From IMG/VR virus record IMGVR_UViG_3300049830_000163, positions 1 to 46,912 of that record: a DNA stretch of 46,912 bases; one strand, 5' to 3'. Below, one piece after another: positions 7,577-33,450 of this stretch; within the stretch, counting starts at the first letter, position 1, and every line of letters begins with the position of its first letter. The stretch comes from a virus. Under the pieces are notes generated by a model, which searched no databases, was not told the DNA's origin, and saw only the letters and a program-made list of their open reading frames with translations. The translations under genes were made by a program, and so were the position numbers.

Positions 7577-8056
7577 ATGTATGACGCACTACTCATCTTC
7601 GATGGAACTCTCGACACTACCGGCGCTGCCGGTCCGTCGGGTGTTGCTCTCACTGTCACTCGCGCCTCTACGAACGTTATCGACTGGACCGTAGCTCGAG
7701 ACGTTGGGGTGAACGCGGACCTCGAAGCTCACCTCGTGATCGCGCAGACCTTCACGGCTGCCGGCGCGGCGACGCTTCAGGTGGCGTATCAAACCTCCGC
7801 AGACAACGCGACTTGGGTGGATATACTTAACTCCCCGGTCTACGCTGTGGCCGATCTGGTCGCGGGCGCCCTCGTCTTCCGGTACAAGGTTCCCTTGTTC
7901 CAGTTGAACGACAAAGGCACGCCGAACCGCTATCATCGGCTGAACTACACCGTCGCCACCGGTCCCTTCACGGCCGGTTCTGTTATCGCTTGGATCACCG
8001 GAATGGGAGACCGGCAGGCCTTCCAGCCCTACGGTCCAAACTATTCGGAGCAGTAA
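7577..8056 (+). CDS. Bbp16-like capsid decoration protein
   Basis: This 159-aa protein directly follows the major capsid gene, with AAGGAG upstream. It is beta-rich, beginning 'MYDALLIFDGTLDTTGAAG' and containing 'TLQVAYQTSADNATWVDI' and 'YHRLNYTVATGPFTAGSV'. This matches the Bbp16 family encoded next to capsid genes in BPP-1-like phages, thought to be cement/decoration proteins. Location and length agree with the family. Confidence 0.8.
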   Translation: MYDALLIFDGTLDTTGAAGPSGVALTVTRASTNVIDWTVARDVGVNADLEAHLVIAQTFTAAGAATLQVAYQTSADNATWVDILNSPVYAVADLVAGALVFRYKVPLFQLNDKGTPNRYHRLNYTVATGPFTAGSVIAWITGMGDRQAFQPYGPNYSEQ

Positions 8057-8059
8057 CTC

Positions 8060-8380
8060 ATGGCTAAGTACCAAGTCAACTCTCGGTGCTTCATGGGGGG
8101 ACAGCTTATTGACCCAGGTCTCATCGTCACCCTTCCGGATGACTTTGTGCCGGGCTGGTATCTTACTCCGCTGGACGACGCCGCGCAGGTTGCGTACGAC
8201 AAGTACGAAAGCGCGCTGCCTAACTCGATGAAGCCGAAACCGGAGGGGTCGACGCTGGAAATCCAGATCGACGATCCTGGTCTCGACACGGGCAGCAATG
8301 AAGTCGATTTGTCCCAAACGCTGGCCAGCGCCAATTTGACGCAGGCACAGCCGGGGCCGACCGAAGCGAAACCGAAATAA
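8060..8380 (+). CDS. Hypothetical head-module protein
   Basis: This 106-aa protein starts three bases after the Bbp16-like gene. The first half looks like a small beta domain ('FMGGQLIDPGLIVTLPDDFVPGW'). The second half is a Pro/Gln/Thr-rich, probably disordered tail. No known domain was recognised. It is the last gene before a strong terminator, so it belongs to the capsid transcription unit. Confidence 0.72.
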   Translation: MAKYQVNSRCFMGGQLIDPGLIVTLPDDFVPGWYLTPLDDAAQVAYDKYESALPNSMKPKPEGSTLEIQIDDPGLDTGSNEVDLSQTLASANLTQAQPGPTEAKPK

Positions 8381-8387
8381 TTTGAGT

Positions 8388-8413
8388 GGGGGACTTCGGT
8401 CCCCCCTCTTTCT
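8388..8413 (+). terminator. Rho-independent terminator after the capsid genes
   Basis: A perfect 7-bp GC stem (GGGGGAC 8388-8394 with GTCCCCC 8399-8405) closed by a TTCG tetraloop is followed by a T-rich tract (TCTTTCTC). It is placed like the T7 Tphi terminator behind the capsid gene. It would raise capsid mRNA relative to tail mRNA. Confidence 0.85.
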
Positions 8414-8426
8414 CAAGGAACCGAAT

Positions 8427-10340
8427 GTGAAAAAGCTTCTCGCATCAATAGCCGGCCTCTTCCTGCTCGCGGCGGGAAGTATGGCAGCGGCTCAGACTTC
8501 TGGAGGCCCGACACCTCCAGCGAACTGTTCGAACACGAGTGCCGGTATCATCCGCGATGGTACGACGAACTGCAGCTATTTCCTCAAAGTCAACCCAGAC
8601 GGCTCGATCAATACTACTGGTGGTGGTGGCGGCGGTAACACTTCTGTTACGGCTAAAGCCGCATCTCCGACTTACGTCGAGGGCTCCACTACTAACCCGT
8701 TGAGCACCGACCTCCACGGTGGCCTGCGCGTCCTGAATATGGACTCCTCGGGCAATCCAATTGACCCGAACGCGGCGCTGCCTGCAGGCACCAACCTCAT
8801 CGGCAAGGTCGGCATAGACCAGACCACGGTCGGCACGACCAACGCCGTCTCCTTGGCTCAGGTCGGCTCTACCTCGGTCGCCACCGGCAACGGCGTCACG
8901 GGCGCCGGCTCGCCGCGCGTAACGATCTCTTCGGATAACTCCGAAGTTCCGACCAAGATCGCGGATGGCTCCCTGGTCACACTCGGCTCAAAAGCCGACG
9001 CAGCGACATGCGCCACGACCAATACGATGCTGGCCTGCATCCGGCAGCTTAACACCAGCATCAACTCGTCCGTCCCCGCTGGCACGAACCTGATCGGCAA
9101 CGTAGGCGTCGCGCAGGCTACCGCGCTCGGCACGACGGCGGGCCCTCTCAACCAGGGCTCGGTAACGACGGCAGCCCCGACCTACACCACGGGCAATATC
9201 AACCCGCTCAGCCTGACCACGGCGGGCGGCCTCCGTGTGGATATGAGCGGCACGACGGCACCCCTGCCGACAGGCGCGGCGACCTCGGCCAACCAGCCAA
9301 CCACGGTGGCTGTCGCGGGTGCGGCGACGACGGGCACTGGCAACGTCGCGTTTGGCGCTGCTACGACCGGCGCGCCCACAGACACCACCGGCAATAGCTA
9401 TCCGCTCTCACTCACGACCTCGGGCGGCCTGCGACATGATTTGCTGAGCATCAATGGCACGACGGTCAGCACCGGCACGGGCGCGGCTGGTGCGGGCACT
9501 CAGCGCGTCACGGTTTCCACGGATACTGCGACGATCGCCGGATCGGCCGTCGGCACCGCCGGCACGCCCTCAACCAACGTCGTCTCCATCCAGGGCGTTG
9601 CGTCGGGTACGGCGGTCCCGGTCTCGTTTGCGACGATCAATGCCTTCGCGGGTACGACCTCGACCTCGACCACCGGGATTATGAGCTTCGGCGCGTCAAC
9701 CACCGCTGCGCCAGCCTACACCACGGGTAGCAACTGGCCGCTCTCTCTTGCGACCAACGGCGGTCTGCGCGTGGATCTCAACTCCGTTGCAGGCACCACT
9801 ATCGTTACGGGCGGCGTCGCGGGTTCTCAGTCTGTAGGTGGCACGGCTGCGGCTCTGGCGGCCAACACCGGCAACCCGGTCAAGACGGGCTTGGTCTATA
9901 ACACGGCGACAACCGCCGCGACCACCGGCCAAATCCAGAACGCGGCTGGCGACCAGTTCGGCAATATCGGTGAAGCCTTCAACCCGTCGATGGCGGTGCA
10001 GATCACCGGTCAGTCCGCGACCACGGCGAACACCGCCAACGTCGCGACCCTGGCGGCGGCGGCGGCGAAGTTCACATGGATTGCGGGCTTCTCCTGCACC
10101 GCAGGCGGCGCGACGGCCGGTTCTCTTGTGACCATCACCGTCGCCGGTACGATCACGGGCTCGCTGACCTACACCTGGGGCATTCCGACTGGAGCGACCC
10201 TGGCCGCAACACCCTTCACCCTCGAATTCGCCAAGCCGATCCAAAGCTCGGCGGTCAACACGGCAATCACGGTCACGGCTGGCGCGGCTGGCGCGGGTAA
10301 CACCGTCCAGCAATGCAATGCCCACGGCTACCAGCAGTAA
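8427..10340 (+). CDS. Secreted repeat-rich protein with signal peptide
   Basis: This 637-aa protein starts at GTG 8427 with AAGGA 7-8 nt upstream. It opens with a textbook Sec signal peptide: MKKLL, a hydrophobic core, and likely cleavage after A22 (SMAAA/QTSGG). The rest is Gly/Thr/Ala-rich with at least three imperfect repeats of the kind 'PTYTTGNINPLSLTTAGGLRVD' separated by variable segments (about residues 65-90, 240-275, 315-350, 430-465). A compact C-terminal domain ends 'CNAHGYQQ'. Six cysteines suit an oxidising compartment. No enzyme motif was recognised. It may be a surface or fibre-like protein exported before lysis. Confidence 0.72.
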   Translation: MKKLLASIAGLFLLAAGSMAAAQTSGGPTPPANCSNTSAGIIRDGTTNCSYFLKVNPDGSINTTGGGGGGNTSVTAKAASPTYVEGSTTNPLSTDLHGGLRVLNMDSSGNPIDPNAALPAGTNLIGKVGIDQTTVGTTNAVSLAQVGSTSVATGNGVTGAGSPRVTISSDNSEVPTKIADGSLVTLGSKADAATCATTNTMLACIRQLNTSINSSVPAGTNLIGNVGVAQATALGTTAGPLNQGSVTTAAPTYTTGNINPLSLTTAGGLRVDMSGTTAPLPTGAATSANQPTTVAVAGAATTGTGNVAFGAATTGAPTDTTGNSYPLSLTTSGGLRHDLLSINGTTVSTGTGAAGAGTQRVTVSTDTATIAGSAVGTAGTPSTNVVSIQGVASGTAVPVSFATINAFAGTTSTSTTGIMSFGASTTAAPAYTTGSNWPLSLATNGGLRVDLNSVAGTTIVTGGVAGSQSVGGTAAALAANTGNPVKTGLVYNTATTAATTGQIQNAAGDQFGNIGEAFNPSMAVQITGQSATTANTANVATLAAAAAKFTWIAGFSCTAGGATAGSLVTITVAGTITGSLTYTWGIPTGATLAATPFTLEFAKPIQSSAVNTAITVTAGAAGAGNTVQQCNAHGYQQ

Positions 10341-10349
10341 GGGGTGGGC

Positions 10350-11246
10350 ATGCGAAAGCTTCTTGCGCTTCTTCTAGCTCTGCTCTCGATCCCCGCTTCG
10401 GCGGGGATCAACCATGGCGTTGCAGCGGTCTCTTACGTTGGGCCTGGCGATGTTGTGGGGAGCGCTTCTTTTTGGGTTGGCCTGCGCGCTTATTCACTCG
10501 CCAAGGCGACAGCGAACGCGCCGGCGATCAAGATCGTCCGCTCCTCCGATAGCCATAGCTGCGACGTGCTCCTCGCGACCACAGGCGGCCTAGGCAACAC
10601 CGGAAACTGTTCAACTGGCGGAGAAAACGGAACAGCGGTCGCAACCTGGTGTAACGCGACCACCTGCAAGATCGATATCTTCTACGATCAAATCGGCGCT
10701 GCGAATTTCACCGCCAACAACAGCGGTACACGAGCGACCCTCACGTTCAACTGCATCAATACGACGTTGCCTTGCGCGGATTTCGGGGCTGGCGTGTCGT
10801 TCTATGGCGGCGCCAACGCCAGCGTCAGCCAGCCTTTGACGGAAAGCTTCGTGGCGATCCGCACGGGGGCATTTACCTCGCAGAACGACATTTTGACCCT
10901 GGCGAACGGCACGTTTTTCGACGCGGCCAACAATAGGGTCGGAGCCTTCTTTGGAGCCAGCACATCGACTGTTGCGAGCGACAATGCCTGGCATGCGTTC
11001 CAAACCGTCGTGAACAGCACCAGTTCCATTCAAGCCGTCGATGCGACCCAGACCACCGGGTTGAGCATGGGCAACAATGCGACGGGCGCCAGCATATGGC
11101 TGGGAACGCAGAGCTCCGGCGGCAACAATCCGCTGAACGGCAAGATCACCGAGGCAGGCGTTTGGGCCACGAACTTCTCCGGCGCCCAGATGACCAACAT
11201 GTGTAACAATCAGTTCACTTATTGGGGCACGTCAGTTTCATGCTAA
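10350..11246 (+). CDS. Secreted LamG/concanavalin-like protein
   Basis: This 298-aa protein has a very clear signal peptide (MRKLLALLLALLSIPASA/G, cleavage after A18). The N-terminal part contains 'LRAYSLAKATANAPAIKIVRSS', resembling a segment found in phage lectin-like and arabinofuranosidase-B-like domains. The C-terminal 'GKITEAGVWATNFSGAQMTNM' is the usual last strand of LamG/ConA-like folds. Eight cysteines, an even number, fit disulfides. A glycan-binding exported protein is likely. ATG 10350 is preferred over GTG 10344 because AAGGGG is better spaced. The end overlaps the next gene by seven bases. Confidence 0.7.
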   Translation: MRKLLALLLALLSIPASAGINHGVAAVSYVGPGDVVGSASFWVGLRAYSLAKATANAPAIKIVRSSDSHSCDVLLATTGGLGNTGNCSTGGENGTAVATWCNATTCKIDIFYDQIGAANFTANNSGTRATLTFNCINTTLPCADFGAGVSFYGGANASVSQPLTESFVAIRTGAFTSQNDILTLANGTFFDAANNRVGAFFGASTSTVASDNAWHAFQTVVNSTSSIQAVDATQTTGLSMGNNATGASIWLGTQSSGGNNPLNGKITEAGVWATNFSGAQMTNMCNNQFTYWGTSVSC

Positions 11247-13771
11247 AGCACCTATTCCCCTTCATCCTCGGCTTTTGCTTAGTAACAGACTGCGCCGACG
11301 CTCAAATCTACCGCGTGAAGCACTTCAGCGGCGCGGCTCGATCCGCATCACCCGTGGTCGTTCCTGGCGTCTCGCCGCCGACAGTGAACACCACCACCCG
11401 TCAGATGTCCTACGGCGTGAACGACATTACGCCGACCAGCCACGGTAGCCCGGGCGACAACGGGTACGGCCTTCGCGGCTCAATCCGCTGGGATGCCACG
11501 CCCTTTGTGGAGTACAGCGGGGTCGTTCAGCTTGGCCTCTTCGCTTACCACCCGCCCACGGATGCTGAGAAGGCCGCGGGCTTGGCGAATAACGTCGGCA
11601 GCGTTCGGGTCCGGTGCGACAAGGGCGCTTGGGTCACGATCCCTCAGACCAGCGTCAACGCTTCGGCGGGAGGCGTGATAGACTGGAACGTCACGCTCAA
11701 CATAAATGGTGCGTGGTCGGATGGCCTACACACCTGCGATGCGGTGGCGATCCCCTATACCGGCCCAGACATCATCGCCGAGGGGCCGCCACAAGACGCC
11801 TACGTCCATCTCCACGATCAGGCGAAGGCGCTCAACGCGGCGATCGACAACGGGTCAGGCGCCGCCGGGAGCACGCTAAGCATCTACGACACGACGCTTT
11901 TCACCTGGCAGAACGGTACCACCTCCGAGACTATTCTGAGTATTGGACACTCGGTCTCGATGGTCGGCGTCGCGCCCAACACGTTTATCGACGGCACCAG
12001 CACGGTCAACCCGACAGCATGTGTAGCTGACACGGGCTCCAACTGCACTGGTGCGGGCCTGGCCGGCACTTACCATGTCAACGTAGGATCACAGACGGTC
12101 CACGGCGCTGACTTCACCGCGACGATCTCCGGCACCGTCATGACCGTGACCGCCGTCAGTGGCTCCGGCAACGTCCAGCCGGGCTACAACCTCTTCGGCT
12201 CCGGGGTGACGGGCGGGACGAAGATCACCTGCAGCACGACATGCACGGGCACGCATTGCGGTTCAGTCTGTACCGGCGCGGGCTACACCGGCACCTATGA
12301 ACTCAGCACCAGTTCCACCGTTGGATCTCCGACCTCGATGCAAACCGCCGAGGGCGCGAGCTTTGGAAACCTCAGCAGCTACACCTTCATCACCAATTTC
12401 AGCGGCACCCTGGCGCGCAAAAAATACTACGTCTCCCTGTCGGGCAGCAACGCCAATGACGGGCTGACCTCAGCGACGCCCGTGGCCGATATCGGACGGG
12501 CGCAGCAGCTAGCCTCGCTTCTGGCAAACGGCGGCCTCTACGGCTCCGTGGTGTGCTTGATGAACGGCAGCACCTATAGCTATGCCGGCTCAACCGCCAT
12601 TCCCTGGTCTTCGCAGGGCTGGACACAGATCGTCGGCGCTGATCAGCCGCCGTGTTCCGTTGGGGGCGACCCCGGCAATCCCACGCTCAACGTCATTTCG
12701 ACAGATCGGACCTACTTTCCGCTTCATACGATGTGGAAATACCTCAACCTCAAAGGCAACCCGAGCACGCAGAATTCGGCGACGGGCTGGTATCTGGCCG
12801 TCGATCACGTCACGCAGAAGAAGGAGTTAACCGGGCTCGGGGGACTGTTGCAAAACGGCGCGTACACCTGCGTCGAGAGCACTAGCTGGTTCGGGACAGA
12901 CGGGGGTTGCTCCGGCGCGGTCCTCAGCCGCAATGTGACGGGCAAATACATCATTGCAGACTGCGCCCACCAAATTCCGGTGCTGGTGAATGAGACATGC
13001 GAGTACGCCGGGCCTAACCTCTATTGGGCGACAGGAACGTCAACGTCTGGTTCAAACGTCATCACTGGAATTTCGTTCGTGCCGTCTGAGTTGTCAAGCT
13101 ACGTCGCGTCTGACATATGGCTCGCGACGGCAAATCCGAGCATCGCGCCCTTCACTACGGCGGCGGGGGTGTTCCAGGCGGGTACGGCAGCGACTTCCTG
13201 CTTCCCTGGAACCTATACGGGCGTGACAAACCTGACGCAGCTTTACGTCGGCGCGGTCACTAGCAACTCAATCACGGTGGTGGATTGGACGGGAAACCCC
13301 GTCAATGCGGTATCGACTTGCGTCAACGGAACCCTGGCGTCCCTGGGGGCTCACTCCGATGCCCTTCAGGAGCAGATCGGAATTCCGATCCACGACATTT
13401 ATCTTGTGGGAAACAGCTTCCTGAAGAACTCTACCGGAAATCAACAGGGTTTGTTCCTGGAGTACATCGGCATCGGGAATAGTTATATTGCGCAAAATTG
13501 GTTTAACAGCGCCGCCCTGGACGCTGAAAGCATGGTGCTAATTAACGGCGGTAACGAGAACATCATTCTTACGCAGAATATCTTCCAGCAGAACAAGTCT
13601 GTGCGCCTCGACACCGATGGATCTCACGTCACCAACTCCAAGAACGCGACCATGATCGGCGACCAGTGCATGGCCGGCGTACCGACCCCGCCCTCGTTCA
13701 ACGGCAGCGGAACGAACGTGCGGCGGCTGGCTAATATCAGCAGCCAGTGTTATACTACCACAACCCCCTAG
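11240..13771 (+). CDS. Secreted tailspike-like protein (beta-helix type)
   Basis: This 843-aa protein has a signal peptide ending A-D-A/Q (cleavage after about residue 21). The N-terminal 190 residues are beta-rich. A Cys-rich middle follows, and near residue 395 the segment 'KKYYVSLSGSNANDGLTSAT' appears. This is the usual entry to right-handed parallel beta-helix domains of pectate-lyase type, which continues to the C-terminus ('NSFLKNSTGNQQG', 'NENIILTQNIFQQN'). There are about 18 cysteines after the signal peptide, unusual for a cytosol-assembled virion protein. It could be an exported polysaccharide depolymerase or a spike. Confidence 0.68.
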   Translation: MLKHLFPFILGFCLVTDCADAQIYRVKHFSGAARSASPVVVPGVSPPTVNTTTRQMSYGVNDITPTSHGSPGDNGYGLRGSIRWDATPFVEYSGVVQLGLFAYHPPTDAEKAAGLANNVGSVRVRCDKGAWVTIPQTSVNASAGGVIDWNVTLNINGAWSDGLHTCDAVAIPYTGPDIIAEGPPQDAYVHLHDQAKALNAAIDNGSGAAGSTLSIYDTTLFTWQNGTTSETILSIGHSVSMVGVAPNTFIDGTSTVNPTACVADTGSNCTGAGLAGTYHVNVGSQTVHGADFTATISGTVMTVTAVSGSGNVQPGYNLFGSGVTGGTKITCSTTCTGTHCGSVCTGAGYTGTYELSTSSTVGSPTSMQTAEGASFGNLSSYTFITNFSGTLARKKYYVSLSGSNANDGLTSATPVADIGRAQQLASLLANGGLYGSVVCLMNGSTYSYAGSTAIPWSSQGWTQIVGADQPPCSVGGDPGNPTLNVISTDRTYFPLHTMWKYLNLKGNPSTQNSATGWYLAVDHVTQKKELTGLGGLLQNGAYTCVESTSWFGTDGGCSGAVLSRNVTGKYIIADCAHQIPVLVNETCEYAGPNLYWATGTSTSGSNVITGISFVPSELSSYVASDIWLATANPSIAPFTTAAGVFQAGTAATSCFPGTYTGVTNLTQLYVGAVTSNSITVVDWTGNPVNAVSTCVNGTLASLGAHSDALQEQIGIPIHDIYLVGNSFLKNSTGNQQGLFLEYIGIGNSYIAQNWFNSAALDAESMVLINGGNENIILTQNIFQQNKSVRLDTDGSHVTNSKNATMIGDQCMAGVPTPPSFNGSGTNVRRLANISSQCYTTTTP

Positions 13772-13780
13772 GAGATACCG

Positions 13781-14125
13781 ATGGCTCTTATTGATATGGC
13801 TTATGACGCTGATGAAGTTGCGGAACACAGCCCGGGTTCTTTACAAGTAACTGAAGTCAACCAGCCTAAATATCCTTGGGGGTTGATGATTACCCTCAAC
13901 GAGGAGGCCTTGGAAAAGCTGGGCCTGACTAGTGACGACTTCGAGGTTGGGAAATCTATGATGCTCACCGCACGGACGCGCGTCGTAGGGATTAGCGAGC
14001 GGGAATATGAGGGCTCCGCCCCTTGCTGCTGTGTGGATTTGCAGATCACAAAGCTCGATCTTAAATCCGCGCCCGCGGAGATGCCGAAGGGCAAGGACTC
14101 TCTCGGAGGACGCATGTATGGCTGA
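13781..14125 (+). CDS. Capsid-staple/stabilising-like protein
   Basis: This 114-aa protein starts 'MALIDM' and contains 'YPWGLMITLNEEALEKLGL' and 'VVGISEREYEG...CCCVDLQITKLDL'. The layout is seen in small phage proteins described as capsid staples or stabilisers. GGAG lies 7 nt upstream. From here through the tail genes the codon use is visibly more AT-rich at third positions than in the capsid and secreted genes. Family assignment is from the pattern only. Confidence 0.55.
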   Translation: MALIDMAYDADEVAEHSPGSLQVTEVNQPKYPWGLMITLNEEALEKLGLTSDDFEVGKSMMLTARTRVVGISEREYEGSAPCCCVDLQITKLDLKSAPAEMPKGKDSLGGRMYG

Positions 14126-14867
14126 TACTGACATTTGCAACATGGCTCTTAGCTTAATCGGAACGCGGTCTACTATCGACTCGCTTTCCGAGGGTAGCCA
14201 AGAGTCCGCGGCGTGCTCTATTTGGTACGACCGTCTACGGAAGACTTTGCTTCGCAGCGTACATTGGGGCTTTGCGCGGGCGCAGGATAAGCTGACAGTC
14301 CTGGGCACTTGGGCAGATGGAACTGCGCCCTACCCATGGCGATACAAGTATCAGTACCCACCGGGCTGCTTGCGCCTCCGGTACCTTCTCCCTCCGACGC
14401 CGCCGCAAAATTCTGGTATAGTTGTGGGCGCCGACAGTGTAACTAGCGGTTGGGGTTTTCAGCCTTCGCGGGCTAACGCTTTCGCCGTGGCAAACGATCG
14501 GAATAATCTGGGCCAGCAGAGCCGAGTCATCTTGTCTAACCTGCTTCAGGCGCAAGCGGTTTTCACTATCGATGTGACCGACACAGATTTAATGGATGAC
14601 CTCTTTCAGACAGCGCTAGCCAATATGCTCGCCTACCACATTGTTATAGCCCTGACGGGAAACGTAGGTGAGAAAGCGGCTTTTCAACAGTCCACTATGG
14701 ACGCCGTAAATTCCGCGCGGGCGTCTGACGGCAATGAAGCGATGCCTCGGATAGACATTCTTCCGGACTGGCTCGCCATTCGTGGCACGGGAGATATGAC
14801 AGACTACGGTATGCCGAACGGGGCGCAGTGGTTTAACTCTTACGAGGAGATTGGCTGGAGTGGCTAG
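14118..14867 (+). CDS. Tail tubular protein A (T7 gp11-like adaptor)
   Basis: This 249-aa protein has the family hallmark N-terminus 'DICNMALSLIGTRSTIDSLSEGSQESAACSIWYDRLRKTLLRSVHWGFA', given here in its usual order of helix, turn, helix. A small insertion follows ('RYKYQYPPGCLRLRYL'), then the helix bundle 'LLQAQAVFTIDVTDTDLMDDLFQTALANMLAY'. It forms the ring between portal and nozzle. ATG 14118 overlaps the preceding stop by eight bases and is preceded by GGAGGA. Confidence 0.88.
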   Translation: MADTDICNMALSLIGTRSTIDSLSEGSQESAACSIWYDRLRKTLLRSVHWGFARAQDKLTVLGTWADGTAPYPWRYKYQYPPGCLRLRYLLPPTPPQNSGIVVGADSVTSGWGFQPSRANAFAVANDRNNLGQQSRVILSNLLQAQAVFTIDVTDTDLMDDLFQTALANMLAYHIVIALTGNVGEKAAFQQSTMDAVNSARASDGNEAMPRIDILPDWLAIRGTGDMTDYGMPNGAQWFNSYEEIGWSG

Positions 14868-17442
14868 GTCTGATATTCAGTCCAGCTTTAGTGCTGGCGA
14901 ACTTTCCAAAAGTTTATACGGCCGCGTTGACTTGGATAAGTACCAGTCCGGCGCCGCGCTCATGGAGAATTTCTTCGTTGACTACCGCGGCGGGGCGAGT
15001 TCGCGTCCAGGAACTCAACTGATCGATCGGGCGCGGCAACCAGGATCGGCGGCGCCCCCGCACTTGTTCCCGTTCATCTTCTCTCAGGGACAGAGTTACG
15101 TCCTTGAGCTGGGCGATCTCTACATGCGGTTCTATACGAACGGGCAACAGTTATTGCAAACCGGCGTAGCTATCACGGGGATTACCCAAGCCAACCCTGC
15201 TGTTGTGACTTCCGTAGCTCACGGTTTTGCAACAGGTAAGAACGTCTATCTATCCGGCGTTGGTGGAATGACGCAGGTGAATGGCGTTACCTATCAGATT
15301 GTCGTGATTGACGCGAACCACTACTCGCTGCAAACCCTTGATGGAGTAGGGGTTAATTCTATCTTCTACACCCCGTACATCTCAGGCGGTACGGGGGCGG
15401 GTATTTATGAACTAGTTACGCCCTGGGCAGCTGTTGATTTACCGAAGCTGAAATGGGCCCAGTCAGCAGATGTTATAACTTTCACGCATAACAGCTATCC
15501 GATTTATAACCTCAGCCGCACTGGAGTTAGTACGTTTACGCTAGCGCTGGAGGTGATTGCTCCGGTGCTTCCTGCGGTAACGGGCGCGACAGCCTTCGCT
15601 TCGGTTGCGGGTAACTTGATCTACCAGTACATCGTCTGCCCAGTTACGCGGGCGGGCGTTCGTGGTGCGCAGAATAACAGCTTCGCCGTAGGCTCCAAAG
15701 CTCTGGATCCTCTTGCAGCAACACCTGTAGTGATTGAGTGTGACTGGGCCGGCGGAGGCGCGGCCGATCACTTTGACGTATTCAAAACCGGCCCTGTGCC
15801 GAACACGGCTACGAACCAGCCGACAGTATTTGGTTACATCGGCTCTACCGTCATCGGCTCCTTCAACGACAACAACATCGGCCCGAACTACGCAGACAAT
15901 CCACCAGACTTCCGCAACCCGTTCTCGGGCGGGAAAAATCCAGGTTGTGTGGCTTATATCCAGCAGCGTCGGGTGTATGCGAATATAGCAAACTCTTCGC
16001 CGGAGCAAATGGAATTTTCTGTTCCGGGAGCGTATTCAGTCTTCGATACGACGTTCACCGTAAACGCCTCTGACGCGCTTTCCATCTCCCTAACCTCGCG
16101 CCAAGAGAACGGGATTGTATCTCTAGTCCCGACGAGTACAGGCCTCGTTGTATTCACAACAGGCGGGGCTTTTCTAGTCTCCGGCGGCTCACCCAGCGCG
16201 GCGCTGACCCCCACAACTATCACCGCACTTCCCCAAGCCAGCGCGGGCGCAAATGACCTACGCCCATTACAAATCAACTACGATATCCTCTATGTCGAAG
16301 CTAAGGGAAGTACTGTTCGAGACTTGAGTTTCAACTTCTATACCCAGTCTTTCTACGGTTTCGATCGGTCGGCTCTCGCTAACCATCTATTCTTCGGCTA
16401 TACTCTGGTTGACTGGGACTACGCCGAGGCCCCCTTTAAAATGGTTTGGGCTGTTCGTAATGACGGGCGCGCCCTCTCTCTCACATTCATGCCGGAGCAG
16501 GAGGTCTATGGTTGGGCGCACCATTATACTCAGGGAGCATTTAATTCGGTCTGCGTCGTTCCTGAAGGTAATGAAAACCGAGTCTACTTCGTCTGCCAAC
16601 GACAGTTCGGAACAAAGAAAGTCTACTACGTCGAACGCATGGCCTCGCGAAAATTCACTCGTGTCGAAGATGCCTGGTGTGTAGATTGTGCGCTGGCGCT
16701 ACCTCTAACCGCGCCCGCGTATGCTTTGGCTATGACGGCCACGCCTACCGAAGCAACGATTACCGCTAATAGCGGCGCGCCGTTTAACTCCACCTGGCTC
16801 GGGCAAATTATTTGGCTGGACGTAGGCGGGAAGCTGCAGGTCGATCAGATCATCTCCACGACTAAAATCACCGCAACTATTCTAGAACCCTTAGGCAATC
16901 GTATTCCGGACGACCCTTTGAACTGCTTCGACGTGCCTTCCGGTCTTTGGCAAGTGGGCACACCGACAACTGCAATCGGCGGTCTGCAGCACCTCGCTGG
17001 AATGACTGTTACTGGACTGGCTGACGGCATGGTCATCGACCCAACTGTCGTTACGTCTGACGGAACTATAACCCTCGCTAACGCGGCGACAAAAGTTACA
17101 GTGGGCCTTGGCTTTGCGGCCCGACTACAAACCCTTTACCTCGACACGGGCGAGCCCACTATTCAGGGCCGGCGTAAACGTATCCCTGCGGTTACTCTTC
17201 GAGTGGATCAAACTCGCGGCTTGACGGCGGGCGCAACATTTGATACCCTTACCCCGGTTAAGCAATCCGGCCCCGGAGCCTACAGCGTGCCACCTCCACT
17301 ACTCTCCGCCGACCTGTATCACGTCATCGCCGGAGGTTGGGACCTGTATGGCCAGGTCTGCGTCGAGCAAGCTCTTCCACTTCCGGCCAGTGTGCTGGGC
17401 ATCATAGGGGAGTATCAGATTGGTGACGATAGTCGCTCGTAG
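14860..17442 (+). CDS. Tail tubular protein B (nozzle)
   Basis: This 860-aa protein has the characteristic start 'ARSDIQSSFSAGELSKSLYGRVDLDKY', followed by 'MENFFVDYRGGASSRPGTQ' and 'FIFSQGQSYVLELGDLYMRFY', as in podovirus nozzle proteins. Residues from about 360 carry the propeller-like segments ('QRRVYANIANSSPEQMEFS', 'SRKFTRVEDAWCVD'). GTG 14860 is chosen because AGGAG is 10 nt upstream; the TTG at 14851 would be one base from that site. It forms the hexameric tail end and binds fibres. Confidence 0.9.
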   Translation: MARSDIQSSFSAGELSKSLYGRVDLDKYQSGAALMENFFVDYRGGASSRPGTQLIDRARQPGSAAPPHLFPFIFSQGQSYVLELGDLYMRFYTNGQQLLQTGVAITGITQANPAVVTSVAHGFATGKNVYLSGVGGMTQVNGVTYQIVVIDANHYSLQTLDGVGVNSIFYTPYISGGTGAGIYELVTPWAAVDLPKLKWAQSADVITFTHNSYPIYNLSRTGVSTFTLALEVIAPVLPAVTGATAFASVAGNLIYQYIVCPVTRAGVRGAQNNSFAVGSKALDPLAATPVVIECDWAGGGAADHFDVFKTGPVPNTATNQPTVFGYIGSTVIGSFNDNNIGPNYADNPPDFRNPFSGGKNPGCVAYIQQRRVYANIANSSPEQMEFSVPGAYSVFDTTFTVNASDALSISLTSRQENGIVSLVPTSTGLVVFTTGGAFLVSGGSPSAALTPTTITALPQASAGANDLRPLQINYDILYVEAKGSTVRDLSFNFYTQSFYGFDRSALANHLFFGYTLVDWDYAEAPFKMVWAVRNDGRALSLTFMPEQEVYGWAHHYTQGAFNSVCVVPEGNENRVYFVCQRQFGTKKVYYVERMASRKFTRVEDAWCVDCALALPLTAPAYALAMTATPTEATITANSGAPFNSTWLGQIIWLDVGGKLQVDQIISTTKITATILEPLGNRIPDDPLNCFDVPSGLWQVGTPTTAIGGLQHLAGMTVTGLADGMVIDPTVVTSDGTITLANAATKVTVGLGFAARLQTLYLDTGEPTIQGRRKRIPAVTLRVDQTRGLTAGATFDTLTPVKQSGPGAYSVPPPLLSADLYHVIAGGWDLYGQVCVEQALPLPASVLGIIGEYQIGDDSRS

Positions 17443-18477: not shown

Positions 18478-20630
18478 TGGCTGAAGTTCCTGGTGCAACT
18501 CAGCCCCAAACGCCGGCGCAAGGGGCGCTGCAACCTCTTCAAGTCTCGGCTAATCCGAACGCGTTCGGAGGTCCAGTCGCAGCAGGCTTAACTTCTCTAG
18601 CCGCGGGTGTTGAGAAGGCAAGCGATACTGCGTTTGACGCAGCAAAGATGATGACCGCGCTAAAGAATAAAGCAGATGCCGATAATGCTACACTCACTGC
18701 GGCCAACAACGCAATGTCTATTGCGGATGAGTTTAAGAAAACGCAACGCGGCGGCAACGCGATTAACAACGTGCAGGACTATACTCTTAAGATTGAACAG
18801 GCCCGGGCGGATGCCGGTGCCTCGCTCAGCAACCCAATCGCGCGGCAAATCTTTGAGGCTGACTCTCGCCGGGCAATCCTAGGCCAGGTCAGCGAGGTTC
18901 ATCGTTTCGCAGATGCGGAGCAAGAGAAGTACATTAGAAACTCCGCCATGTCGGTTATGTCAAACGCGATGGCGGAGGCTGCGGCTGATCCCGGTAACCC
19001 CCTCCTCGCGGGAAACGCGGAGCGGGTTATTCAGGAACAAAGCCATTTCCTCGCGGCATATGATGGCCTCGATCCGGCTTCCGCGGATAAAATGGTTCGC
19101 GAGCGAACGGGCGCGATGTATGCGGAGGGCGCCTCCATCCTCGCCGGCGGCGGGCATATTCAAGAGGCAGTTGACCATCTGGATGCGCATAGAGCCTCAA
19201 TGGATCCTTTGGTCTACGCGCAAACAATGATGAAGCTGAAACCGTCGATCCTGGCGAATGACTCGGCGAGGCTGGCGCTTCAGGCGATTGACGCTGCTAC
19301 CGGGCCAGGGGATAATGATAGTCAGAACTTTAGGTATCTGAAATCCAAAGGCTTGAGTGACGATGACGCGGCCGCGCTAGCCGGGCAGTTTCACGCGGAA
19401 AGCAGCGGTAATCCTCAAACGGGCGCGGGTGATGGAGGCCTTGCTTTGGGACTGGGACAGTGGCACCCAGACCGACAAGCTGCTTTCCAGCAAATGTTTG
19501 GCCACTCCGTCGATAAAGGAACGCGCGAAGAGCAAAATGATTTCGCACTACACGAGTTGACTGCGGGTAGCTTTAAAGCTGTCGGGGCGAAATTCTTCGC
19601 GGCAAAAACTCTTGCGGAGAAAGCCCGAATTCTAACTCAAGAATATGAAATCCCGGCAGATCGTGGGGGTACGGAAGTAGCCAATCGGTTGAAAGCTTCG
19701 CAAGCAATTCAGTCAACCGCCTCTCAAACGGGCGGGCCGAAGACCTCGATGGAGTGGCGGGCGACGGAAGAGGCAGCACTGCAGGCAGCGGATCGCCTGG
19801 CTGAGCAGCAAATTCCAAATAACGCGGCGTTCCGACAGCAGGTTGAAAACAACACCCGCGCAGAGATCAACCGGAAAATTCAGGCGGCGGAGAATAGAGA
19901 AATCTCCGCTACGTCTTCTATCCTCGAGCAAGTTGAAAAAGGTGTTGCTACGGACGAGCATTCTCTTTTGAGTGTGCCGGGTATGCTTGATCAGTGGAAC
20001 ACTCTTCCCCCGAAGTATCATCAAGTGATTCTTCAGGATATGAAGCGCGTTGGGAATGAGATAACGCCGGAGGGTCAGCAGGAACTGTACCGTCTTAGCG
20101 GGCTGCGGGCGAATGCAACGAATAACCCAGAAGATTTCCTTAACGAGGATATCATGGGTAATGCCATGCTGCCTCCGAAAACACGGATGGCGCTTGTCAA
20201 GCAGCAGCAGGAAATTAAATCGAAGAATTACTCTGCGCTGAACAATGACGCTATTGCGAATAAATACTTTAACAGTCCTATGATGACTGAGCAACTGGGT
20301 CTGGCGAAGATACCTAACAACAATAAAGAAAACGCCGCGATGCGGGGGGCGTTGAGTCAAGCTACGGCGGACTGGATGGCGAACCCGGCGAACAAGGATC
20401 GGCTTCCGAACCAGCGGGATATGTCGGGTATCGCTCAGGAGGCTATTCAAAGTTACCAGGCCTCGAAGAAGTTCGGAGGCGACGAGAAGGCCTCGGCTAG
20501 CCTTGTAGCGCCAAAGGCCCCGGCGGGATACACTGACCAAGGTATCCGTTCGGCGCTTCTAGCGCGCGGAATTACAAACCCGACGCCCGCGGACATTGCT
20601 GAAGCTCATCGTATTCTTGGAGGTAAGTGA
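18477..20630 (+). CDS. Internal virion protein with tail-lysozyme domain
   Basis: This 717-aa protein, just downstream of the gp14-like gene, corresponds to the T7 gp15 position. Residues about 287-375 form a phage tail-lysozyme domain: 'LKSKGLSDDDAAALAGQFHAES', with E308 as the likely catalytic acid, and 'GLGQWHPDRQAAFQQM'. The rest is helical. It would be ejected and help locally open peptidoglycan during DNA entry. In T7 the transglycosylase sits in gp16, so here the enzyme has moved to the neighbouring protein. It ends within the GTGATG of the next gene; the GGAGGT in its last codons serves that gene. Confidence 0.86.
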   Translation: MAEVPGATQPQTPAQGALQPLQVSANPNAFGGPVAAGLTSLAAGVEKASDTAFDAAKMMTALKNKADADNATLTAANNAMSIADEFKKTQRGGNAINNVQDYTLKIEQARADAGASLSNPIARQIFEADSRRAILGQVSEVHRFADAEQEKYIRNSAMSVMSNAMAEAAADPGNPLLAGNAERVIQEQSHFLAAYDGLDPASADKMVRERTGAMYAEGASILAGGGHIQEAVDHLDAHRASMDPLVYAQTMMKLKPSILANDSARLALQAIDAATGPGDNDSQNFRYLKSKGLSDDDAAALAGQFHAESSGNPQTGAGDGGLALGLGQWHPDRQAAFQQMFGHSVDKGTREEQNDFALHELTAGSFKAVGAKFFAAKTLAEKARILTQEYEIPADRGGTEVANRLKASQAIQSTASQTGGPKTSMEWRATEEAALQAADRLAEQQIPNNAAFRQQVENNTRAEINRKIQAAENREISATSSILEQVEKGVATDEHSLLSVPGMLDQWNTLPPKYHQVILQDMKRVGNEITPEGQQELYRLSGLRANATNNPEDFLNEDIMGNAMLPPKTRMALVKQQQEIKSKNYSALNNDAIANKYFNSPMMTEQLGLAKIPNNNKENAAMRGALSQATADWMANPANKDRLPNQRDMSGIAQEAIQSYQASKKFGGDEKASASLVAPKAPAGYTDQGIRSALLARGITNPTPADIAEAHRILGGK

Positions 20631-23600
20631 TGGCCGATCCGCTTGATGATCTCGCCGCGCGCATTCGGGCGAGGGAGCATTCTGACGCTTCGCTGAACAC
20701 CACCGCGGTTAGTGATGTCCCACCCGCGCAAGCTGTGGACGCGCTACGCAACGGCCCGCTGGTTGGCGTAGCTCCTTCAGTAGCGATGCAAGACCCGACG
20801 CAGGTTAATCAGGGGGCTCGTATTGCGACCATACAAGGGGCCTTGAATAACTCCGGCGTTCGGACTTGGGCGGCACGGGCGACACCTGCTCAACTCGCGG
20901 CGACGCAAGATGACTTCACAAGCTTGGCGGGGATCGCAAGTAAAATTAACTCTTTTACTAAATCCTCCCTGCTGGATATCTGGCGTAGTGTTCATGCAGC
21001 AGACCAAGCTGTCGGTGCGGGCGCCCGTCGGGTTTCTGCAACACCGTGGGCGTCTACCGAAGATGCCCCGCTGGGTAAGATAGGCGCTATCGGGTCGAGC
21101 ATTCTTGACGCACTGAACGTCGCGGGCTTTGTTCCGAGTTATCTAACGGGTAAAGGACTGCAAGCCTTAACAGCTGGGATGCCGAACGATCTAACTGGAG
21201 TTCGTGGAAATCCTGAGTTTGATATGTTTCGACCATCGACTTGGCTGCAGCAGAGAGAACTTGCTCCGAACGAAGTTAAGCCTTATACGCAAAGCGTGAT
21301 GGGAGCGTCGCTGCTTGGTTTGGGTTTTGCTGAAGGTTTAAGTGGCGTTTTGGGTATGCAGTTTAAACGCCCCGTTCGGCCGATAGTGGATGAGGGGTTG
21401 TTTCGCGACACTCAACCGCGTTTGACAGGGCCAGTGAGTTATACCGATGCTGAGTTCGCGGATCACCCTGTTCCGGGGACGAGTCCTGCAGCTGATGTTG
21501 TCTATCAGCAACACGCTCTGCAGTTCGAACAGACGCTGAAAGAAACAGAAGAGGCGGTTACGGCGAGCCAAACTCAAGCGCGGCTTCCTGCGCTGACAGA
21601 GGACTTTGTTAAGACAGTTACGCCGGATACTAAATTTCAAATTGACCCGGAAGCTTGGGATACATTGACGCCTGAGCAGCATGCACTTGTAGTGGATCAA
21701 GGTCTGGACACTAAAGGTATTTCAGATGCGTACGCTGCCGGACACCCGTATGAAATCTCGGCGGCGGAATACTTGTCGAAGGTTAGCGGAACACCGCTTG
21801 CGGACGCTCTTCGCCCGTATATGAGTGCTGACGGTGGTATCTCCGCGACGGCGGCGAAGGAACTGGAGAAGGCGCATCCGGTTACGGAGCTGAAAACGGG
21901 GGAGGATCTGGATAAGGTTTTCACGCAGGGGTCGAAAGCGCAAGAGGCGGTTCATAAGTTCCTGGACGCAGTTGATACTGTGAACCCGTCCGGGACTATC
22001 CAAGTCGACCAAGCGATAGCCATGGCTAAGGCTCTGGAAAGTCAAGATGTTCAGAACCTGAACTGGAAAGACCAACAGCTTCTAGAGGCGTGGAACAGCC
22101 TCAAGTCCGTCGCGGGCGTTAAGAAAGAGGCGAGGACTGCAGAAGAGAAGCCCGCGTCGGAGCCCGCCGTTGACGAAGACACCATCGCCGCGATGGCGGA
22201 TCAGGGTATGTCGCCCTACGACTACTACACGCAGACCGGAAAAGAGTTCCCTGAACCGGAAGACCTTGACATCGCCGGGCTGAATGATGACGAGAAAGCC
22301 CAATGGGAAGTTGCGAAGCAGGGTGTTCAGCAAGCGATCCCGAAGCTAGCGAAGGAGCGGTTTCTCGATCGACTGTTCTCGGAGCTCCCTCCGGGAATGA
22401 CGAAGCCGCAGTACGTTGCGTACTCAGCGCGCGTCGGGAAGGCGTTCGACGATCTGGTGCAGAAGCTCTGGCACCAGACGTATAATAACGTGAAGAGCCA
22501 GTATACGAAAGAGTGGAAGCAGGTCTATCAGAATATCTTCCCAACTGTTATGAATGAGTTCATGGCAGACCCTGGGATCATGGCGGCGCATACCTTGAGG
22601 TTCTCGAAGGTTGTCGCTGATGATATTGTGAAGGACAACGTCCTCGTTCATAACGGGAAGCCGATCACCTACTACCACGGCTCGAAGAAGTTTACGAACC
22701 TGGGCACGGAGGAGAATCCCTGGCGGCCGGTGAACTATCCTGTTATCTCTTTCAGTACCGATCCGCAGTTTGCAAGCCGTTGGGCGCACGGTGACGCTTT
22801 CGATCCTTTTTATTCAGCGCCATCGCCTTCAGAAGAGGGTCAAACTTTCCAGCCAACTATCTTCGTGGTTAATATCAAAGCGAAGAACCCCGCGGACTTC
22901 CGCAAAGCTGAAGATGTTCAGAAAGCTGCGGAGTGGCACGCGGAGCAAGAACTGAAACAGTGGGATCAGCTGTCAGATACAGAGAAACGCTACGCGATTA
23001 ATAACCAGGGGATGTCCGGGGAGATTAACGCGGGTACGCGAGCTGAGTATGGGAAGCGGTTAGCGCAGAGTAAAAAACATGCGCTTGCTAACGGTTCGTG
23101 GACTATGTGGGAAGTCCCGGAGATGTGGAAAGACATCGGCTGGGACGCGGCGCATATGAAGGAGAGTGCTTCGTCTGCGCTGAATATCTGCATTGCTGAC
23201 GGGAACCAGATTTATTTCCGTTATCGCCCGATGACTGAGTCGCCAGGTATGAAGCTCGCACTAGATACGAAGAAGTCTTACCCGAAAGAGCTTTGGGAGA
23301 AGCTCCCAAATAATATGTTCTCGAAAGAACACGGGCGAGACGCGGATATCGTGGCGCAAGAACTTGGGTTCTCCTCTGGACAAGAGATGCTGGAGAAGGT
23401 CTCGAGAGTTGAGGCCATGCGAGGGGATGCGCCCTTCCGCAAGTGGGTGAAGGATACGATTGAGAGCGAGACGAATAAGCTTGCGCGGTCTCAGGTGGGA
23501 GATATCCTATCGCCCGAGAAGATCATGGCTGACGCGCGCGTGTTATTTACGTCGCCCGAGGCTTCTGATATCCTGGTTTCGGAACTGAAGGCGCTGTCTG

Positions 23601-26572: not shown

Positions 26573-29551
26573 ATGACGGTTTCTTCGCAGATCACCTCAA
26601 TAACGATCCCTGGGAATGGGGTCCAAACAGCCTTCGCCTACAACTTCGCCATACCCAGCGCGAGCGATGGCTCTGCTCTCGTGAATGTGCTCGTAGTCAA
26701 CGCGGATGGGAGTAACACTACACTTTCTCCAGGGACGTTTACGATCACGGGGCTGAACAATCCCAGTGGGGGCGTGGTGGTTTATCCGCTCTCAGGGGCG
26801 CCGCTGCAAGTCGGGCAGAACTTGGTGATTCAGCGGGGCGTGCCGTACACGCAAAACACCTCGGTAACGAACCAGGCTTTCTATCCGCGGACGCTTGAGC
26901 AAGTGGCGGATTGGCTCACCTATCAAACGCAGCAGTTGGCTGAGGTTGACTCGCGGGCGCTGCAGTTTCTTCCGGGGGATACGGGGCTGGGGTATCTGCC
27001 TCCGGCGAGTTTGCGTAAAGGTTTAGTGCTCGGCTTCGATGCGATAACGGGCGCACCGATTGCGGTCACTGGCGGAAGTGGGGGTGGAGGTTCTTCGGCC
27101 TGGTCCGCGTTGACGGGCGTCCCGCAAGTCATTCAGGCGATGGCGGCACAGACAGCTGCGAATGGGCAGATCATAGAATTCACCGGGCCTACCACAGCCC
27201 ATATGATCTCAACGCCGAGCTTTACACAGAACTTTAACTACAGTGCTTTGTCCGGCGTGCCGGGGCAAGTGGCGGCACTGACGACAGGTGGTGTGGCTTC
27301 GGCCGGGAAAATCTTTGAGTACCTGACCGCGACGACGGGTCACTTCATTGCGACGCCGGGTGGGGGCGGGGGCGGTATCACCGGGCCAGGCTCGAGCACG
27401 AATAACGCGCTGGTTAAGTGGACCTCAGCCGGCGGTGTGTCTGTTGGGGATACGGCGGTTGTACCGAGTGCGAATGGGTATTCGCTGATCAGTGCGGTTA
27501 ACTACGCGGCGATGCGCGGCTTACTTGGAATTGGCAATGTTGGTTTACAAGCTGATTTAAGTACGCTCCTTCTCGCTGGCACGGGCCTGACGGCTGCAAC
27601 TGTGGCCGGTGTCACAACGATTACTTACACGGGCTCTGGAGGAGGAATAACTACTTCCACCTATGTCGGCACTACTACTGGAGCCGATTTCACTGTAGCA
27701 AGCCAAACTATTACTTTCCCCGCAGGAACTAACACTGGCGATTTGGCGGTTATTCTCTGCGGGGGACAAACTAGTCAGCCTATTACCCCCTCGGGTTGGA
27801 CCACTGTATTTTCCGGTGCAGCAGCCTTTGGCTCTTTTGCCCTAATCGCATTTAAAGTCTTAACCAACGCTGATGTTGTCGCGGGTGGCGTAAATGTGAC
27901 AGGCTTTGCAGGTAATAGCAAACAAATCGTTGCTGTCTGGCGCGGACCTACGAATGTTTCAATCGGGGTTAGCAGCGCCGCAGCTTCTCCGAGCACCCTC
28001 AACTTCAACAAAAATGCCGCGAATATTGGAACTGTTTCCTTATACTCGGATCATACAGTAACAACCATAACCGGACGCCCTGGTGCGCCGTTTACTAATC
28101 GGCTCACTGCTACTGGAGCCTTGTGGCAGTTCGCGATGGTGGACGCCCTAGCGCCCGGCTCGCCCTATGTTGATGGGACTAACGAGACCTGGACTTGGAG
28201 CAGTTTCCAGTCTAACGTTTGGATGCTGGAACTTCGTAATGATGGGGTGACTTCGGCGGGCGTTAACTCTGTAAATGCTCGTACTGGCGCTGTCCTATTA
28301 ACTGCCGCTGACGTTGCTACAAACTTCGGTTCTCAAATGAATACCAAGATCGCGGCGGGAACGGGCGTCACCACGTCCTACAACGCCGGGACGGACACGT
28401 TGACGATCAACGCGCCCGGCGGGGGCGCAGGCGTCACGTCCTTCAACGGGCGCACCGGGGGCGTGACGCTTGGCGCTGCGGACCTCACCGGTATGATTAC
28501 AGCGGGCGCGGGGATTAGTGTTAACTACACTGGCGCTACATATCAGATCATCAACACCGGAAGTTCAGGCGGTGTGCCCATTGGCTACAACGGGGCGGCC
28601 GAGAACTCAATCACTCCCGCAAATACCGCGACGACGAACACGACGAACCTGAACAATCTCATCTCGACGATCAACGCGGCGGGAGGCGGGAAGATCTGGT
28701 TCAATGGGCCGGGCCCGTATCAGATTAACGGGACGATCCATTCGCTCTCGAATGTTGATATTGAGATGGTGGACGGCGCGTACTTCAGCTGGCAAGGGGC
28801 CGCGGGCGGAACTTGTTTTGACTCGCCGAGCACGGACGTGCTTTATGCCGCGAAGCATACGATTAACATCAACGAGGGCGGGGCGTTCACCGGGATCGTC
28901 TTTAACTATCATTCGTTTCAAAACGTCGACCTGAACCTTACGGCGCTTGGGACACAAACTGCTGCGGGGACGTTTACGCAGTTATTCGCGGATAGCTCGG
29001 CCGGGCTGAGTCCGTATCCTGGAAACGCGGCGAACCGGAACTCAGCCTTCTCTCGTATCAGCCTTAAGCATCTGGGTACATGCGGATATGGACTGTTGAT
29101 CCAGGGGATTACTTCTGGGTATTCGGGCGCGCCACAAGTCCTGACTGATATCACATTCCATGACTGTCAGTTCGCCAATGTCCTGTTCCGTGGGATTAAG
29201 ATTAACCAGTGGGCGGATACCTTTACCTTCCAGGGGCATACGTATATCGGGCTGAATGGGTTGAACTCGATTGGGGTTGTAATCAATGAAGGGCGAGTGA
29301 ATAACTATTCGGTCTATAATATCACCTTTCAGGACCTAGCAATTGATACCTTCAGCACCGGCCTGAACCGTAACGGCGTAGTCCTCTTCGAGAGCAAAAC
29401 AATCAAAATTGACCAGTACTTCCAAGACCCTACAGCTGAGAACGGCCCGTTCCTCAATACCGCTGGGGCGAGTTATCTCTACAATATTTGTGTCGCGGGC
29501 ACGAATAACATGGTCCAGCATTACTTGGGCTGGTCCTCAACCACTCCTTAG
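26573..29551 (+). CDS. Tail fibre/tailspike with T7-type N-terminal anchor
   Basis: This 992-aa protein has an N-terminal 150-residue domain like T7 gp17 ('YPRTLEQVADWLTYQTQQL', 'PPASLRKGLVLGFDAITGAP') that attaches to the nozzle. A Gly-rich linker follows, then two copies of an 'SALxGVP...ATP' unit, a module at about residues 360-560 coded by AT-richer DNA, two 'VNSVNARTGAVLLTAADV'-type repeats, and a C-terminal right-handed beta-helix region ('IWFNGPGPYQINGTIHSLSN', 'YNITFQDLAIDTFS'). It is the receptor-binding protein and possibly has depolymerase activity. No signal peptide. Confidence 0.87.
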   Translation: MTVSSQITSITIPGNGVQTAFAYNFAIPSASDGSALVNVLVVNADGSNTTLSPGTFTITGLNNPSGGVVVYPLSGAPLQVGQNLVIQRGVPYTQNTSVTNQAFYPRTLEQVADWLTYQTQQLAEVDSRALQFLPGDTGLGYLPPASLRKGLVLGFDAITGAPIAVTGGSGGGGSSAWSALTGVPQVIQAMAAQTAANGQIIEFTGPTTAHMISTPSFTQNFNYSALSGVPGQVAALTTGGVASAGKIFEYLTATTGHFIATPGGGGGGITGPGSSTNNALVKWTSAGGVSVGDTAVVPSANGYSLISAVNYAAMRGLLGIGNVGLQADLSTLLLAGTGLTAATVAGVTTITYTGSGGGITTSTYVGTTTGADFTVASQTITFPAGTNTGDLAVILCGGQTSQPITPSGWTTVFSGAAAFGSFALIAFKVLTNADVVAGGVNVTGFAGNSKQIVAVWRGPTNVSIGVSSAAASPSTLNFNKNAANIGTVSLYSDHTVTTITGRPGAPFTNRLTATGALWQFAMVDALAPGSPYVDGTNETWTWSSFQSNVWMLELRNDGVTSAGVNSVNARTGAVLLTAADVATNFGSQMNTKIAAGTGVTTSYNAGTDTLTINAPGGGAGVTSFNGRTGGVTLGAADLTGMITAGAGISVNYTGATYQIINTGSSGGVPIGYNGAAENSITPANTATTNTTNLNNLISTINAAGGGKIWFNGPGPYQINGTIHSLSNVDIEMVDGAYFSWQGAAGGTCFDSPSTDVLYAAKHTININEGGAFTGIVFNYHSFQNVDLNLTALGTQTAAGTFTQLFADSSAGLSPYPGNAANRNSAFSRISLKHLGTCGYGLLIQGITSGYSGAPQVLTDITFHDCQFANVLFRGIKINQWADTFTFQGHTYIGLNGLNSIGVVINEGRVNNYSVYNITFQDLAIDTFSTGLNRNGVVLFESKTIKIDQYFQDPTAENGPFLNTAGASYLYNICVAGTNNMVQHYLGWSSTTP

Positions 29552-33447: not shown

Positions 33448-33450
33448 CTA
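33448..33450 (-). other. In-frame TAG between exonuclease and polymerase
   Basis: This TAG is followed without a gap by the polymerase ATG in the same frame. Readthrough or suppression would give an 869-aa UDG-Exo-Pol protein (341 + 1 + 527), a normal length for that fusion. Without readthrough, the GGAGGAG just before TAG allows reinitiation. Confidence 0.85.

Follow-up and report, generated by a model that had tools for sequence, protein, structure and literature searches.

A variable slot between the capsid and tail genes of BPP-1-like phages carries sets of predicted exported, cysteine-rich proteins

The particle proteins of tailed phages are generally taken to fold inside the cytoplasm. 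Why, then, do three consecutive genes in the structural operon of a phage begin with apparent signal peptides, and where would their products act? The three genes (SP1, SP2 and SP3; Table 1) are located in a 46,912-base phage record from IMG/VR, the whole of which was analyzed and is called the window here. As in Bordetella phage BPP-1 and its relatives, the core genes of the window follow the order portal, protease, capsid, Bbp16, Bbp14 and Bbp13; their products include the GP7 major capsid protein, Bbp16, a Gp10-like protein and two tail proteins, phrog_394 and phrog_376. The window also has genes for an endolysin and a spanin, and a replication block lies on the opposite strand. The window phage is probably a lytic, BPP-1-like podovirus. 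A search for tyrosine integrases in 22 phage records (the window and 21 related ones) gave no match above the cut-off; since temperate carriage was not found by this search, the trio was rejected as lysogenic conversion genes. In BPP-1, the slot between the capsid-cement and tail-adaptor genes comprises 295 bp and no exported gene, whereas in the window the trio fills an insertion of 5.4 kb. The true start of the Bbp14-like gene is probably downstream of 14007, since its phrog_394 match begins at residue 38. Elsewhere in the window, the similarity to the phrog_17 DNA polymerase is split over two adjacent ORFs of 342 and 527 aa (31864-34476, minus strand), as also in the relative G018, and the homologue of the single long phrog_9880 profile is divided between two ORFs, 1316 and 626 aa long (20627-26454).

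Table 1. Features of the window and O-antigen-ligase-like genes of related loci.
Feature	Locus	Position	Strand	Remarks
Bbp16-like cement protein, left border of slot	window	7577..8056	+	PF21190, 2.9e-23
phrog_590-like small protein, left border of slot	window	8060..8380	+	phrog_590 match
Terminator-like hairpin before the trio	window	8388..8405	+	UUCG loop; T-rich stretch follows
SP1, predicted exported repeat protein	window	8427..10340	+	signal peptide VKKLLASIAGLFLLAAGSMAAA/Q; 637 aa; 6 mature Cys
SP2, predicted exported, GH54-arabinofuranosidase-like (ConA-like)	window	10350..11246	+	signal peptide MRKLLALLLALLSIPASA/G; 298 aa; 8 mature Cys
SP3, large, predicted exported, possibly beta-helix spike	window	11240..13771	+	signal peptide MLKHLFPFILGFCLVTDCADA/Q, weaker, by eye
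Gp10-like adaptor (phrog_825), right border of slot	window	13781..14125	+	phrog_825 match
Bbp14-like tail adaptor	window	14007..14867	+	phrog_394 match
Bbp13-like tail protein, survey anchor	window	14851..17442	+	phrog_376 match
Ordinary tail fibre, conserved N-terminal adaptor (phrog_1640), comparison gene	window	26573..29551	+	no signal peptide
O-antigen-ligase-like gene in or adjoining slot	L004	4540-5565		
O-antigen-ligase-like gene in or adjoining slot	L025	5138-6307		
O-antigen-ligase-like gene in or adjoining slot	L111	2670-3806		
O-antigen-ligase-like gene in or adjoining slot	L047	1237-2100		
O-antigen-ligase-like gene in or adjoining slot	L063	2191-3087		

The trio genes stand in tight series (gaps of 46, 9, -7 and 9), the start of SP3 overlapping the end of SP2 by 7 nt. 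SP1 starts with GTG and is preceded by AAGGA, SP2 starts with ATG and is preceded by AAGGGG, and SP3 also starts with ATG. A recount reproduced the coordinates, the starts and the even numbers of mature Cys given in the initial annotation; SP3 has 843 aa and 20 Cys, of which 2 are in the signal peptide and 18 in the mature part. Charged, hydrophobic and AxA-type regions were recognized at the N-termini of SP1 and SP2 by a signal-peptide heuristic and at that of SP3 by eye. Applied with a threshold of 4.8 to the 106 ORFs of at least 100 aa in the window, the heuristic called SP1 and SP2 only. SP3 scored 3.59 with a different cut, so that its ADA/Q site is assigned by eye only. Thus, two of the three proposed Sec signals were called, while the third fell below the threshold and is plausible by eye. 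Judged by eye as well, SP3 was ruled out as a lipoprotein, as Asp precedes the Cys of the would-be lipobox. The C-terminal domain of SP1, which ends with GYQQ, is common to many exported slot proteins, and SP1 repeats also recur in large phage proteins without signals.

The description of SP2 as LamG-like came close. Its predicted fold (pLDDT 75.6, pTM 0.79) is ConA-like or GH54-like, with 6sxt/1wd3 as the top structure matches and a TM of 0.64 by query length (E 3e-9) against the GH54 structure. By structure and profile matches, SP2 falls into the GH54 catalytic-domain fold. It resembles GH54 alpha-L-arabinofuranosidase B in this fold but differs in that the profile match (1wd3, E 7.6e-10) covers the N-terminal third only. 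SP2 alone and a three-row SP2 profile gave no meaningful match to the PDB by sequence, and further generic jelly-roll matches (sialidases, toxin binding domains) concern the fold only and say nothing on toxicity. The unexported homologue in L061 exceeds the Pfam cut-off for the arabinofuranosidase family. From the model, SP2 may be described as GH54-arabinofuranosidase-like in fold, and GH54 activity may be absent. This distant similarity is the only match of the trio to a glycan family by sequence, SP1 and SP3 having none. The assignment of SP3 as a beta-helix was not confirmed: its single-sequence model was useless (pLDDT 33), no family match and no meaningful PDB match by sequence were obtained, and no homologue was found in the viral contigs and named phage records searched. 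Neither the trio nor three other exported slot families had sequence relatives among 50,697 named phage records, and the trio did not match fibre families.

Homologues of SP2 without a signal peptide occur in L061, L065 and L051, the kind of relative that the initial annotation had named as speaking against export; these proteins possess 0, 2 and 0 Cys, respectively. Exported members of the family possess 6-14 mature Cys (an odd nine in L054), and four of them retain as a pair two C-terminal Cys that are thirteen residues apart. This fits a family with an exported and an unexported form better than a false signal. In L049 and L054, SP2 has exported neighbours on both sides as well, and the remaining genes of these loci are much diverged from the window clade. 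Searches with the SP2 family in the cellular genomes of two classes gave 5 weak matches among 385 genomes and 2 among 369; four of these seven cellular loci were inspected, and none is long enough to reveal a prophage context.

The initial annotation had placed a strong terminator before the trio. A hairpin with a T-rich stretch is indeed present (Table 1); its strength was not borne out, with a folding z-score of -1.8 and 4 terminator-like sites between 7400 and 14900, not above the 6.5 expected from shuffled sequence. The hairpin could lower expression of the trio genes downstream. The relative L014 has a diverged hairpin of like kind in the same interval. In a pattern scan of fully bounded large slots, the window hairpin and an unrelated one inside L085 were detected, and that of L014 was missed. 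Since it was seen in the window and L014 only, the UUCG hairpin was rejected as a common hallmark of such slots.

The trio is part of a wider pattern. Six deposited relatives (BPP-1, a Vibrio phage, a Limnohabitans phage and three spring-water podoviruses) have slots of 0.3-1.3 kb in which no signal-peptide gene was called. Further relatives were gathered via the tail protein Bbp13 and via SP2, and their slots were scanned with a single heuristic. Among slots delimited on both sides and 1.9 kb or longer, 27 of 34 contained one or more signal-peptide genes and 16 of 34 three or more; the shorter bounded slots contained none (0/30). The large bounded slots without a called signal peptide were L025, L062, L084, L085, L092, L094 and L098. 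Left-truncated loci with at least 1.9 kb upstream contained a signal-peptide gene in 21 of 32 cases. At the protein level, signal peptides were called for 108 of 278 slot proteins (at least 130 aa) as compared to 0 of 247 deduplicated structural homologues outside the slot, and for 50 of 7800 shuffled N-termini. Deduplication at 70% identity refers to proteins, not loci, and the loci include near copies. We chose the threshold of 4.8 after inspecting the calls of a first pass without threshold (54 of 165 slot genes versus 26 of 480 outside). The false calls that had been noticed, e.g., the MAKLFDLARM protein of L058 and its copies, score below this value; the multi-pass O-antigen-ligase-like protein L047:1237 exceeds it and is counted among the exported proteins below. 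By these sequence comparisons, the slot in related contigs is a hypervariable locus of predicted exported, fibre- or lectin-like sets. In L023 (3191-6001), L046 (7947-9986), L041 (563-2635) and L027 (1497-5930), three or four Bbp14-like genes rather than one precede Bbp13. The Limnohabitans phage DC33 (PQ492659.1, L008) is filed under Inoviridae, yet its capsid and tail are BPP-1-like, so that it is probably misclassified.

Cysteine parity bears on export itself. Counted after the predicted cut, mature Cys were even in 101 of the 107 exported proteins that have Cys (p 1e-23; 6 of the full set of 113 have none). In the controls, even numbers were found for 36 of 72 unexported slot proteins (at least 200 aa) and 70 of 158 structural proteins elsewhere. 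When each family was counted once, 37 of 40 were even, and with distinct family-count values, 61 of 67 were even for exported proteins as compared to 30 of 55 and 17 of 40 for the two controls. Among the six odd cases, a shift of the cut to the next plausible site restores an even number in at least one (L116). Cys density was 1.89 per 100 residues in exported proteins, 1.06 in unexported slot proteins and 0.59 in structural proteins elsewhere. Even counts in exported proteins against chance-like parity in unexported slot proteins make it likely that disulfides form outside the cytoplasm. Gln follows the cut in 65 of 113 exported proteins, and Tat-type motifs are present at the starts of the slot proteins L045:4384, L075:7096 and L088:3991 and, less certainly, L053:4847. 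Export and disulfide formation of the slot proteins are thus well supported as predictions. Accordingly, of the exported glycan-targeting system proposed initially, the export part was upheld by slot-confined signals, even Cys counts and Tat motifs, while the glycan part leans on domain types of related slots.

These domain types were determined by Pfam searches of 102 exported slot proteins, most of which had no match. The remainder included pectate-lyase (3), GDSL (3), Laminin_G_3 (3), ArabFuran (2), SASA (1), lectin (1), tail collar (1) and S74 (1) domains, and exported slot relatives also match several tail-fibre PHROGs. The O-antigen-ligase-like Wzy_C match was obtained for all five slot membrane proteins tested and exceeded the curated cut-off in one. 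Together, GH54-like, pectate-lyase, SASA/GDSL, lectin-like and ligase-like domains in related slots would be consistent with glycan targeting.

Some exported slot proteins may replace an ordinary fibre. Fourteen aligned exported proteins share the N-terminal sequence QCNGVFPxNTVCGN with a conserved Cys pair, followed by varied C-terminal parts. A cytoplasmic adaptor fibre without signal is encoded in 20 of 36 phage records (window included), the exported QCNGVF fibre in 10, none of which also has the adaptor fibre, and neither in 6; four further records that match only the signal-peptide part of the QCNGVF model were left out of this count. Calculated by hand, the chance of this exclusion is about 3e-5 if the records are independent. 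However, on a Bbp13 tree of 31 of the 36 records, the exported-fibre state requires two changes only, so that the mutual exclusion amounts to few events. L060, one partial contig, carries both fibres.

These findings bear on where the slot proteins act. Our leading, still tentative reading, which we put at slightly under an even chance, is that the trio represents one form of an accessory locus found in lytic soil podoviruses, whose exported proteins act as free glycan factors. The trio would be made late, alongside the virion proteins, and would cross the inner membrane by Sec (in a few relatives by Tat). After removal of the signal peptide, disulfides would form in the periplasm, and the proteins might be set free upon cell lysis and then bind or cleave glycans of the surface, such as LPS, capsule or matrix. 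The benefit could be that progeny are kept from sticking to debris and that the surroundings are opened. Alternatively, the exported fibres would be virion parts, folded with disulfides in the periplasm and fitted onto finished particles at lysis. A phage requires a receptor-binding protein; in four records mapped piecewise (G005, G016, G018 and G019), no fibre-like gene above 150 aa was found outside the slot, which makes a virion role of the exported fibre thinkable there. The exclusion of the two fibres and the ordinary, signal-less adaptor fibres at the slot position in L061, L058 and L016 also argue for it, but L060, the few changes on the Bbp13 tree and the longer Bbp13 and Bbp14 of the exported-fibre clade, which could bind the receptor instead, make it rather unlikely. 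In the window, the trio is not needed as a fibre, since the cytoplasmic adaptor fibre is retained. A combined reading, in which one clade exports disulfide-bonded host-recognition fibres fitted at lysis and the trio is an accessory set built likewise, is also doubtful.

Action before lysis is less probable still. The exported proteins might change or mask the receptor (O-antigen) in the periplasm or at the outer membrane and thereby exclude superinfection in the lytic cycle. O-antigen is polymerized and ligated on the periplasmic face, several slots contain O-antigen-ligase-like membrane genes, and esterase and acetylesterase domains occur among exported slot proteins. However, ligase-like genes were present in 2 of 13 records searched and absent from the other 11, the window among them, and the trio would come late for exclusion, as its genes lie among structural genes, which are normally late. 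It is very improbable that the N-terminal segments do not serve export at all and are either hydrophobic by chance or act as membrane pilots in virion proteins: the signals are predictions and that of SP3 is weak by the heuristic, but the even Cys counts, the Tat-type signals and the absence of calls among the structural controls speak against it.

The slot has features in common with two kinds of known systems. Accessory fibre or depolymerase loci provide several fibres or spikes per phage. The slot is likewise modular, with fast-changing fibre, lectin and beta-helix sets and with QC fibres of constant N-terminal and variable C-terminal parts, but its products have Sec or Tat signals and even Cys counts. 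Lom, Bor, Cor and Llp are exported phage proteins. Like these, the slot proteins use the host export machinery, as do signal-peptide endolysins (PMC6116005). All of these differ in being single proteins with other folds, whereas a slot can have as many as six called exported proteins, in the structural operon of phages in which no tyrosine integrase was found. No comparable exported locus was found in searches of open-licence literature, passages of PMC5723332, PMC6116005 and PMC8951688 included. An exported, disulfide-bonded, fibre-like set where relatives have cytoplasmic ones would mean that these phages make extensive use of host secretion, and the locus points either to a virion-maturation step so far undescribed or to a new class of released glycan-acting soil proteins. 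The even-Cys test may serve as a simple finder for such loci in metagenomes.

Two further proteins of relatives were observed. The protein encoded at L140:3737-4417 (minus strand, record G019) has no Pfam match and begins with MKRLLLGMLAAGLSASVSFGADLPPRP; this start recalls outer-membrane proteins of Hyphomicrobiales, which we take as a hint to the host. Outside the slot, L139:3329-3979 (record G018) encodes a signal-peptide protein with a borderline PEP-CTERM motif, scoring 20.2 against a cut-off of 20.7.
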